Made by a program: the position numbers and the translations under genes | Source: an unidentified bacterial endosymbiont | Lineage (GTDB): Bacteria > Pseudomonadota > Gammaproteobacteria > Enterobacterales > Enterobacteriaceae | Direction: 5' to 3' | Assembly: GCF_918797525.1 (NCBI RefSeq) | Contig: NZ_OU963893.1 | Coordinates: forward strand, 2,728,001-2,792,000 | DNA: 64,000 nt | The notes under the pieces: generated by a model | Told to the model about the DNA's origin: nothing | The model's database searches: none | The model's input: only the letters and a program-made list of their open reading frames with translations | Part shown: piece after piece, positions 7,550-9,615 of the stretch | How the letters are laid out: every line of letters begins with the position of its first letter | Numbering within the stretch: the stretch's first letter is position 1

Positions 7550-7666
7550 TAATTATTACCTTCATTTGAACGGTATCAACTGAAGGAGCTATCAGGCTTA
7601 AACATCGATTCTCCAGTTACACTACGCTGCTGCAAAGTTCGTGATGATAAAGACTTAAGAGTTATT

Positions 7667-7704
7667 GGGAGCCGCTTGGAAAACGGAAAACATCCTACAC
7701 CAAG
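7667..7704 (+). repeat. Tn3-family 38-bp inverted repeat, left end
   Basis: The 38 bases begin GGGAGCCGCTTGGAAAACGG and end CTACACCAAG, close to Tn21/Tn3-type termini, and match about 30 of 38 bases with the reversed copy at 8355-8392. The tnpA remnant stops two bases away, as in intact elements. Confidence 0.75.
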
Positions 7705-7705
7705 C

Positions 7706-8013
7706 CTATTTTTTGTACAGACTGCTATCTACTGAGCGTAACGAAAGGTATTTTGCCTGTCCCAGTTTGAGGTTTGTTCTCCAGACGTAATCCCCGCTCA
7801 GATTGATTTGTTCCCATCCCAGCGGTGACAGATGGGTAATCAGTTGCTCATTAATCGGGATCCCTTTCCGTCTCGATGAATTTATCGCTCTTTCTATATA
7901 TACCGTATTCCACAGCGAGATCGCCGCAGTCAGCAATGTCAGCCCACTGGCCCGGTAACTCTGGTTTTCCAGTCCCCGATCTCTGATTTCCCCCAGTAGG
8001 TGCACAAAGGAGT
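7706..8013 (-). pseudogene. Tn3-family transposase C-terminal remnant
   Basis: The minus strand encodes VHLLGEIRDRGLENQSYRAS, GLTLLTAAISLWNTVYIERA and LSPLGWEQINLSGDYVWRTN, the well-conserved C-terminal end of Tn3-family TnpA, ending SLYKK and TAG at 7706-7708 beside its inverted repeat. About 100 of roughly 1000 codons remain; the rest was lost at about 8013. A second copy of the last 28 codons lies in opposite orientation at 9515-9598. Confidence 0.85.
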
Positions 8014-8307: not shown

Positions 8308-8345
8308 CTTAACGTGAGAAACCGTTCCGATGGGCGCCGAACCCC
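8308..8345 (-). repeat. Tn3-type 38-bp inverted repeat, right-end orientation
   Basis: The plus strand reads CTTAACGTGAG at 8308 and ends GCGCCGAACCCC at 8345. The outermost bases and the CTTAACGTGAG and CGTTCC blocks agree with the Tn3 terminus, and the length is exactly 38. It is of a different type from its neighbour at 8355-8392. Confidence 0.7.
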
Positions 8346-8354
8346 AAAAACATC

Positions 8355-8392
8355 CTTAGCGTAGGATATTTTCGTTTTCCAAGCTGCCCCCC
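8355..8392 (-). repeat. Tn21/Tn3-like 38-bp inverted repeat, right end
   Basis: CTTAGCGTAGGATATTTTCG at 8355 through the C-run at 8387-8392 is the reverse complement of a terminus matching the copy at 7667-7704. Together they bound a deleted transposon of 726 bases. It ends 11 bases from the stop of the repeat-protein gene. Confidence 0.75.
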
Positions 8393-8403
8393 AGAATGCA
8401 TGT

Positions 8404-8661
8404 TCATCTGCCTTCATGTTCGCCACCTTCGTGTTCACCGCCTTCGTGTTCACCGCCTTCGTGTTCCCCGCCTTCGTATTCACCGCCTTCGTGTTCACCA
8501 CCTTCGTGTTCCCCGCCTTCGTATTCACCGCCTTCGTACTCACCATGCAGGTCACTAATCGGGTGGACTCCGGTTCGGCTATCTTGGGTAGCAGCAAGAG
8601 CAGCCTGTCCCGACTGCGCCATGACAAAAATACCCACGCCAATCCATAATTTCATACGCAT
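8404..8661 (-). CDS. Secreted pentapeptide-repeat protein (GE[H/Y]EG)9
   Basis: An 85-residue protein from the ATG at 8661, with AAGGGA nine bases upstream. A Sec signal (MRMKLWIGVGIFVMAQSGQA, then ALA) is probably cut after residue 23. A short linker (ATQDSRTGVHPISDLH) is followed at residues 40-84 by nine tandem GExEG units with x = Y,Y,H,H,Y,H,H,H,H, and a final Arg. The mature chain is very acidic and Gly/His-rich, without Cys or Lys, and could bind metal ions. Other frames across the repeats lack a signal peptide. It is divergent from the Fe/2OG hydroxylase gene at 8725, with 63 bases between starts, which suggests that the peptide is its partner or substrate. I know no characterised family for it. 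Confidence 0.75.
   Translation of the reverse strand: MRMKLWIGVGIFVMAQSGQAALAATQDSRTGVHPISDLHGEYEGGEYEGGEHEGGEHEGGEYEGGEHEGGEHEGGEHEGGEHEGR
8410..8544 (-). repeat. Nine 15-bp tandem repeats within the secreted-protein gene
   Basis: The unit is approximately GGTGAACACGAAGGC. Units 2-4 and 5-7 form two 45-bp blocks (pattern Tyr-His-His) that differ at a single base, so the array grew partly by duplication of a three-unit block. Confidence 0.9.
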
Positions 8662-8724
8662 ACTGAATGTCCCTTCAATGTTATCATTACCATCCCTAAG
8701 GATTGCTTCGGAAAAGGATTATAC

Positions 8725-9387
8725 ATGCTGGTTATGATAGCCGATTTACTAAGCGCAAATGAAGTGAGCCATCTTTGCGAGAAAATGCGTCATGTTAATT
8801 ATGTTGATGGTCGTACGACTGCCGGACGTGAGGCACGGCCTGTGAAACAGAACAAGCAGGTTTCCCGTACCGATCCGCAGCTGGTAGAAATGCAAAAACT
8901 CATCCGGGATCGGCTGATGGGTAATGACCTGTTCCGTATGGCTGTCCGGCCAAAAACCATAGTCCCCCCCCTTTTCAGCAGCTATGAACAGGGCATGGCA
9001 TATGGAAGCCATGTTGATAACTCGATTATGAAAGGGGTGCGTACTGACGTTTCTGTGACCATTTTCCTTTCTGAACCTGACCAGTATGAAGGCGGTGAGC
9101 TGGTGATCGAGTCCACTGCCGGTGAGCAGGAGATAAAGCTGGCTGCAGGTTCTGCTGTAACTTATCCCACGACGGCCCTGCACCGGGTTGCGCCTGTCGT
9201 GTCAGGTGAGCGTTTAGCTGCAGTCACCTGGGTTCGTAGCTTTGTGCGGGACGCTGCTCAGCGCGAAATACTTTTCGATCTGGACACCGCCCGCCACAGA
9301 TTATTTGCTCAGTTAGGAAAAACATCAGAGATGGATCTGCTGGCAAAAACGCAGTCAAACCTACTTCGACGTTGGGTTGAGGATTAA
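8725..9387 (+). CDS. PKHD-type Fe(II)/2-oxoglutarate dioxygenase (PiuC/YbiX family)
   Basis: A 220-residue cytoplasmic enzyme from the ATG at 8725, with AAAAGGA seven bases upstream. The iron ligands are His96 and Asp98 (YGSHVDN) and His153 (TALHRVAP); Arg163 in GERLAAVTW should bind 2-oxoglutarate. Family members (E. coli YbiX, Pseudomonas PiuC) usually sit beside TonB-dependent iron receptors and their hydroxylation substrate is not established. Here the partner is instead the divergent gene for a secreted GE(H/Y)EG repeat protein. A C8 tract at 8964-8971 lies inside the frame, which is intact. The gene ends 90 bases before a Tn3-type inverted repeat. Confidence 0.9.
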   Translation: MLVMIADLLSANEVSHLCEKMRHVNYVDGRTTAGREARPVKQNKQVSRTDPQLVEMQKLIRDRLMGNDLFRMAVRPKTIVPPLFSSYEQGMAYGSHVDNSIMKGVRTDVSVTIFLSEPDQYEGGELVIESTAGEQEIKLAAGSAVTYPTTALHRVAPVVSGERLAAVTWVRSFVRDAAQREILFDLDTARHRLFAQLGKTSEMDLLAKTQSNLLRRWVED

Positions 9388-9477: not shown

Positions 9478-9515
9478 GGGTTTTGATGCTCAGTGGAACG
9501 AAAACTCTCGTTATT
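9478..9515 (+). repeat. Tn3-type 38-bp inverted repeat, left-end orientation
   Basis: The block GCTCAGTGGAACGAAAACTC at 9488-9507 is identical to the core of the Tn3 terminus, with a G-rich outer end (GGGTTTTGAT) at 9478. It lies between the hydroxylase gene and a tnpA remnant. Bases 9388-9477 contain no gene. Confidence 0.75.
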
Positions 9516-9598
9516 ACGTCTGGCGAACAAACCTCAAACTGGGACAGGCAAAATACCTTTCGTTACGCTCAGCAGATAACAGTCTGTACAAAAAACAG
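9515..9598 (+). pseudogene. Second Tn3-family transposase C-terminal remnant
   Basis: The plus strand encodes YVWRTNLKLGQAKYLSLRSA, DNSLYKK, nearly identical to the minus-strand remnant at 7706-8013, so the two form an inverted pair. Only the last 28 or so codons are present. The TAG of the other copy is CAG here, so the frame runs on through the partial terminal repeat into the IS6 element. Confidence 0.8.
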
Positions 9599-9615
9599 GT
9601 TTGCGTAGGATATTT
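9599..9615 (-). repeat. Tn3-family inverted repeat truncated by the IS6 element
   Basis: TGCGTAGGATATTT is the inner part of the terminus seen whole at 8355-8392. After 17 of 38 bases it is replaced by the left end of the IS6-family element. Confidence 0.7.

Follow-up and report, generated by a model that had tools for sequence, protein, structure and literature searches.

Two reports tie the Fe(II)/2OG dioxygenases PiuC, YbiX and CciO to iron uptake and propose a siderophore-type substrate for these canonical enzymes (PMC12004947, PMC12004943); the actual substrate is given as unknown in the first of them (PMC12004947). Mutations in PiuC are linked to resistance to the siderophore antibiotic cefiderocol in a third report (PMC11878004), and imelysins are reported to be iron-uptake proteins of Fur-regulated, peroxidase-linked operons (PMC3143127). 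The locus analyzed here, in a 64,000-nucleotide stretch of DNA from an endosymbiont of the Enterobacteriaceae (the window), combines a gene for an oxygenase of the PiuC/YbiX superfamily with a divergent gene for a small repeat protein (Table 1). We propose that the two genes form a functional unit, in which oxygenases of the group to which the window enzyme belongs would hydroxylate the Gly-Glu tract of an exported partner protein, for iron handling; we see about as much prospect of this being right as of its being wrong.

Table 1. Features of the divergent pair and its immediate surroundings, in window positions.
Feature	Positions	Strand	Basis
Fe(II)/2OG dioxygenase gene, PiuC/YbiX superfamily, 220-aa short-loop form	8725..9387	+	domain matches, tree, alignment
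Repeat gene, 85 aa: K-L-W-x-G-V-G leader and nine GE(H/Y)EG pentapeptides	8404..8661	-	sequence; homologues L015, L016, L048/L125, L062/L124
Repeat tract, residues 40-84, nine 15-base units	8410..8544	-	sequence, 15-nt spacing, codons
Leader, residues 1-24, hydrophobic in its core; putative Sec signal	8590..8661	-	conservation in 33 sequences; export by eye
Intergenic region, 63 bases, with both presumed ribosome-binding sites and the ATCCCTAAGGAT element	8662..8724	.	sequence comparison
Inverted repeat, 91 nt, left arm, within Tn3 transposase 3' end	7701..7791	.	95% complementary to 9513-9603
Inverted repeat, 91 nt, right arm	9513..9603	.	complementarity to left arm

Both open reading frames and the gap between them are as the sequence-only reading had given them: a repeat protein with nine His/Tyr pentapeptides, and an intact Fe/2OG enzyme facing away from it. 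The enzyme matches the Pfam domains PF13640 (2OG-FeII_Oxy_3, 55.5 bits) and PF18331 (PKHD_C, 30.9 bits), both above cut-off, and the NCBIfam model NF003974 for Fe2+-dependent dioxygenases (284 bits, cut-off 143); with the YbiX equivalog model NF003972 it reached 176.3 bits, below the cut-off of 399. Its PDB relatives are 3dkq (E 4.9e-57) and the PiuC entries 9ghl and 9qn0-9qn4 (about 5e-45). Residues H96, D98, H153 and R163, which would be the iron and cofactor residues of the family's HxD...H...R arrangement, with R163 as the 2OG-binding Arg, are invariant in 14 aligned sequences. Judged from its sequence, the oxygenase gene is intact and has kept its catalytic residues.

The repeat gene encodes MRMKLWIGVGIFVMAQSGQAALAATQDSRTGVHPISDLH, followed by nine GE(H/Y)EG units (three with Tyr, six with His) and a final R. 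Its leader has the form K-L-W-x-G-V-G-x-F-V; across 33 sequences G10 and A15 are invariant, and R2, L5, W6, G8, V9, F12, V13 and Q16-Q19 are conserved at 90% or more. By eye, such a leader would probably direct Sec export. The peptide has no match to any Pfam family, the imelysin domain PF09375 (M75) included. Four Enterobacterales copies, i.e., that of the window, L015, L016 and L125, together hold 37 repeat units (9, 7, 11 and 10, respectively), in which the variable position is His 23 times and Tyr 14 times and never another residue, while the Gly and Glu positions vary only synonymously, at third bases (in both Gly codons and in the first of the two Glu codons). Since the Gly and Glu codons change only synonymously, and the frame is the sole Gly-Glu tract ORF within the 64-kb window, the gene is more than a chance reading frame; the codon pattern indicates that it is under constraint. 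Among the same four copies the enzyme has a dN/dS of 0.089-0.115. The source genome contains one match to the enzyme and one to the peptide. Comparison of the window with L015 showed, in addition, that over its first 84 nt (8578-8661) the peptide gene differs by 1 base, as against 112 of 660 in the enzyme gene; this near-identity could reflect recombination or a constraint at the DNA level.

Within the intergenic region, Shine-Dalgarno-like sequences were seen by eye 8 nt before the peptide ATG (AAGGGA) and 6 nt before the enzyme ATG (AAGGA). An element, ATCCCTAAGGATT, is common to the window, L015 and L016, and is found with one change, ATTCCTAAGGATT, in L125; it is a possible operator, though not a Fur-like one. 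The best Fur-box match in the window's own intergenic region covers 12 of 19 positions and was equalled in 125 of 500 shuffles; the best matches elsewhere (12/19 in L016; 11/19 in L015, L125 and L124) were equalled in 80 to 357 of 500.

The location had been called cargo-like, and the surroundings bear this out: the pair lies inside the 91-nt inverted repeat, with a DDE_Tnp_Tn3 domain at 7706-8005 (-) and an IS6 transposase following. Lookalikes of Tn3-family terminal repeats were noted around the pair, mainly by eye, at 7662-7711, 8343-8390 and 9484-9615, one of them near the peptide stop codon. Also near the pair are genes for a FAD/NAD(P)-binding protein (PF13454; 6095-7549) and an AmiA-like protein (PF07313; 4789-5727, -).

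The same divergent arrangement, with the leader, recurs in an Enterobacter MAG (L015), on a plasmid of Pantoea agglomerans HJS002 (L016/L002), in another Pantoea genome (G415; L048/L125) and in a genome of the Sphingomonadaceae (G568; L062/L124), with flanks that differ among the five genomes. All five loci read whose enzymes are at least 70% identical to the window's (its own, L015 at 87%, L016 at 85%, L125 at 80% and L124 at 70%) have a divergent gene for leader and tract. Among 61 Pantoea genomes, HJS002 included, an enzyme of at least 80% identity was found in two, and the peptide in both (loci were taken from 15 of the 20 matched genomes). Among 397 genomes of the Sphingomonadaceae, 233 had enzyme matches, and loci were taken for the best 30 matches; the enzyme of about 70% identity occurs in one genome only, and the same genome alone has the peptide at E<=1e-8. 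A search of 297 relatives of G568, partly overlapping with the 397, yielded nothing further; its genus was represented by 2 genomes. The pair had no match in E. coli genomes, and viral contigs gave only three partial, distant matches to the enzyme. Within the window's family (392 genomes searched with the peptide), matches in 10 further genomes, at 11 places, begin only at residue 35 or later and so leave the leader uncovered. Beside the Enterobacter copy, a partial omptin-family outer membrane protease was seen (L015, 283-927).

A profile search with the peptide returned 55 proteins (clusters), 48 of them new, and every match with a named organism was from Sphingomonas. Seven database peptides differ in their number of repeats; a few units of P0005 deviate from the pattern, and P0007 consists of the leader without repeats. 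Twenty-nine of the 48 new proteins were read: the leader is present in 28, though its first residues are missing in two, and most of these carry tracts such as GEGGENERGEGEGEGEG. The exception is P0175 (164 aa), which has a segment resembling a membrane span, a linker of Ala and Pro and the tail GGEHEGGEHEGGEYEGGEHEGGEHEGGEYDDDEGDDD, and whose N-terminal half is unlike the window peptide and looks actinobacterial by eye. With GGEHEGGEYEGG following so different an N-terminal half, P0175 is a hint of a wider distribution of the tract. Neither P0175 nor P0155 matched plasmids. For 8 of the 55 clusters, the longest contig had exactly the same size as for one of the 120 enzymes listed (out of 1968), which points indirectly to adjacency. 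These results, together with the pairs in other Alphaproteobacteria described below, give strong support to the claim that the two genes occur together outside the source strain.

To place the enzyme among its relatives, a tree of 71 sequences was drawn, in which a supported branch (98) separates 42 canonical PiuC/YbiX-like enzymes from 29 that include the window's (hereafter the group); it is a tree of a quick kind, with open forks and long branches, and the placement of L021 is the least sure. It leaves out 14 loci, L025-L038 (13 of which span only residues 106 to 170 or 172, while L029 is 27% identical over 1-172), three viral loci (L039-L041) and duplicate fetches, and its canonical sample is mostly from Sphingomonadaceae and Pantoea. 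The tract labels on the tree were set by eye for L017, L116 and L120; L063, L064, L069 and L110 are marked 'none', though the motif was found there later. The label 'PiuC-type' given by the sequence-only reading fits as to superfamily domains and catalytic residues, but the enzyme is not a canonical one: it falls in the separate group and has a shorter loop after HxD.

Thirteen enzymes of the group have 220 residues, and every one of them has a partner with leader and tract. Relative to the canonical enzymes, these 13 lack five to seven alignment columns directly after HxD and have R75 in place of L, M102 in place of mostly R, R190 in place of I or V, K199 in place of mostly D or G, and K208 in place of mostly N or G. 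All 29 group members have M102 and R190, whereas R75, K199 and K208 are not consistently present beyond the 13; the loop is intermediate in most other members and of canonical length in L119. These 13 have a mean net charge of about -1 (range -8 to +5), compared to -6.2 for the canonical enzymes. The differences in loop and charge would fit an acidic substrate, as circumstantial evidence.

A GEGGE-type core was found within 1.5 kb of the enzyme at 22 of 29 group loci and 0 of 42 canonical loci (Fisher 1e-12, which is not a clean probability because the rows are related). This core was defined with several examples already in view, which did not include L063, L064, L069 and L110. By a composition rule of at least 13 of 16 residues G/E/D, the counts are 14/29 versus 0/42, and with at least 12 of 16, 15/29 versus 1/42. 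As to background, core ORFs number 24 in 104 kb near group enzymes and 1 in 196 kb away from them; for canonical enzymes there are 0 in 154 kb near and 2 in 18 kb away, both at the same spot of the near-identical L023 and L024. The seven group loci in which the motif was not found within 1.5 kb are L108, where the contig ends with the enzyme, L117, L118, L121, L019, L020 and L022. The pairing of group oxygenases with GEGGE-type partners is well supported. The KxWxGxG leader lies within the same distance at 14 of the 29 group loci and at none of the 42 canonical loci, and at these 14 a conserved leader is joined to a variable core beside an oxygenase gene, i.e., the RiPP-like arrangement.

The body of the partner varies widely. 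In 385 alphaproteobacterial genomes, the enzyme profile (E<=1e-75) found 17 loci in 16 genomes, the centre L017 included, and a GEGGE-type motif lies no more than 1.5 kb from the enzyme in 13 of these 17. Leader, GEGGE tract and a helical domain make up the partner in L111-L115 and L119, a form that is broken in the L017/L126 record, while in L116 and L120 leader and tract are joined to an imelysin (PF09375). In L122 and L123 the enzyme is flanked on each side by a tract protein that has long GD/GE polymers and another leader; these exported-looking proteins (L122, 6043-8077; L123, 5998-8211) have a leader core of LALSPITVDF or alike. L109 has a GDE-rich protein as partner, L110 has GGEAGETG and GGEGGESG about 1 kb from the enzyme, and the Erythrobacter locus L021, found by other searches, has a lipoprotein-like form. 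In three loci of the Sphingomonadaceae (L063, L064 and L069) a single GEGGENG stands in a non-repetitive, exported-looking protein directly upstream of the enzyme, and its retention there is as expected of a site-specific motif. Across the relatives the tract thus takes forms such as GEGGENERGEGEG, GGEGGEGGEGG, GGDGDGDG and the single GEGGENG. The partners in L112, L111, L021 and the L017 piece have no Pfam match, and the latter two no NCBIfam match; the helical partners gave a best E of 0.25 against PDB sequences. A relation of the helical partners to imelysins was considered and rejected, with a profile comparison probability of 1.8% and no relation detectable. Folded alone, the L021 partner gave a mean pLDDT of 49. 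In seven sequences of the domain behind the GEGGE tract (L111-L115, L119 and L021), H79, H101 and E105 (L112 numbering) are invariant.

Several of these loci have iron-related neighbors. L117 reads imelysin, DHOR, imelysin, DUF1513 and then the enzyme, without a tract; in L116 a DHOR follows the imelysin partner, and in L126 a CCP/MauG gene adjoins the partner. L124 has a Fur-family gene, a KatG-like (catalase-peroxidase) ORF recognized by eye and, some 3 kb away from the pair, a TonB receptor, and L002 has a glutathione peroxidase neighbor. The source genome has one imelysin, located away from the pair. Since this sole imelysin lies elsewhere and no Fur box stands out, neither lends support to an iron role of the Enterobacterales copies.

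In the mechanism that we propose, the partner's Gly-Glu tract would be the cytoplasmic target of the oxygenase, either ahead of export or in its course. The chemistry would be a hydroxylation, most likely of acidic residues: side-chain hydroxylation is common among 2OG oxygenases, siderophores are known to bind iron through hydroxylated acidic residues, and such residues are predicted here because Gly and Glu/Asp are the constant letters of the tract. Once exported, presumably by Sec, the tract could then bind or carry iron in the periplasm or at the cell surface; in the window it would do so as a free peptide, and elsewhere as a segment of larger, partly iron-handling proteins. The sequence-only reading had likewise made the repeat protein and the enzyme work together, and on this the strong co-occurrence speaks in its favor; the His/Tyr position at which it placed the modification is not general, however. 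The relatives share only the Gly-Glu/Asp motif, so modification at each His/Tyr would be a special case at best, and His/Tyr may be an Enterobacterales extra. The motif is constant while the partner body changes, and it is absent beside the sampled canonical enzymes; this is most simply explained by an enzyme that acts on the motif. On these grounds, whether the tract is the enzyme's substrate stands close to an even call. Tentatively, and with a slight lean against it, the proposal may be extended to the whole PiuC/YbiX-like group as peptide hydroxylases that have a GEGGE-type recognition site behind K-x-W-x-G-x-G or other leaders. Their products would be a new class of ribosomal, oxygenase-modified iron ligands: free peptides in Enterobacterales and Sphingomonas, and segments of imelysin-type or other proteins in further alphaproteobacteria.

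The main alternative, to which we give a real if distinctly minor chance, is that the two genes share a function without being enzyme and substrate: the acidic tract would be a ligand for iron or another metal, and the oxygenase would act on a siderophore or chelate of the same system. Siderophore-type models are published for canonical members (PMC12004947, PMC12004943). The imelysin, DHOR and MauG neighbors and the TonB receptor of L124 point the same way, and L117, with its enzyme in an imelysin operon lacking the tract, agrees with a joint role in iron uptake that needs no peptide as substrate. What such an account leaves unexplained is the constancy of the motif amid changing partner bodies and the single GEGGENG of L063, L064 and L069; moreover, the 42 canonical enzymes would need the ligand equally, yet the motif is missing beside them.

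That the oxygenase regulates or modifies only the K-x-W-x-G-x-G leader, e.g., in export control, with the tract as a passive solubility or metal tail, would suit the conservation of this leader in imelysin, helical and short forms and its restriction to group loci in the counts given above. It is improbable, as the motif occurs without this leader in L122, L123, L021, L063, L064, L069, L109 and L110. Least probable is the absence of any functional link, with the two genes as passengers of mobile DNA and Gly-Glu tracts as common low-complexity ORFs. The Tn3 inverted repeat and IS6 that flank the pair, and the plasmid-borne copy of Pantoea HJS002, are what such passengers would show, but the idea is largely contradicted by the same divergent arrangement within different flanks in five genomes, the low background rate of tract ORFs, the purely synonymous change at Gly/Glu codons and the recurrence in distant alphaproteobacteria.

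The locus can be set beside several described systems. The window enzyme shares superfamily and catalytic residues with PiuC, YbiX and CciO (PKHD-type), but it has 220 aa as against 224-227, belongs to the other tree group and comes with a tract partner; a TonB-dependent receptor was absent among the nine window proteins scanned, the pair included. In the open-licence literature searched, we found no description of a Gly-Glu-tract partner of PiuC/YbiX. A linked, motif-defined partner is a concrete candidate substrate, at least for this enzyme group. The Sec-exported, bufferin-like peptides of MNIO (DUF692-type) systems (PMC13419390) would be alike, if the proposal is true, in that a cytosolic iron oxygenase modifies a leader-bearing peptide. 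They differ in their enzyme, which is of an unrelated family, whereas the window has a 2OG oxygenase and a Cys-free, acidic Gly-Glu tract. Collagen-type prolyl hydroxylases and FIH are 2OG hydroxylases that act on repetitive or motif-bearing proteins; the window tract has no Pro, and its role as substrate is putative. A search of the open-licence literature found no work joining imelysin, dioxygenase and iron, and the available part of the account of imelysin operons names neither a 2OG oxygenase nor a Gly-Glu tract (PMC3143127). Compared to the operons of imelysin (M75)/EfeO and DHOR (EfeB-like), the window partner lacks an imelysin domain, while the tract partner is itself an imelysin in L116 and L120, and a DHOR is present in L116 and L117; the pair may show what Gly-Glu tracts on imelysin-type iron proteins do.
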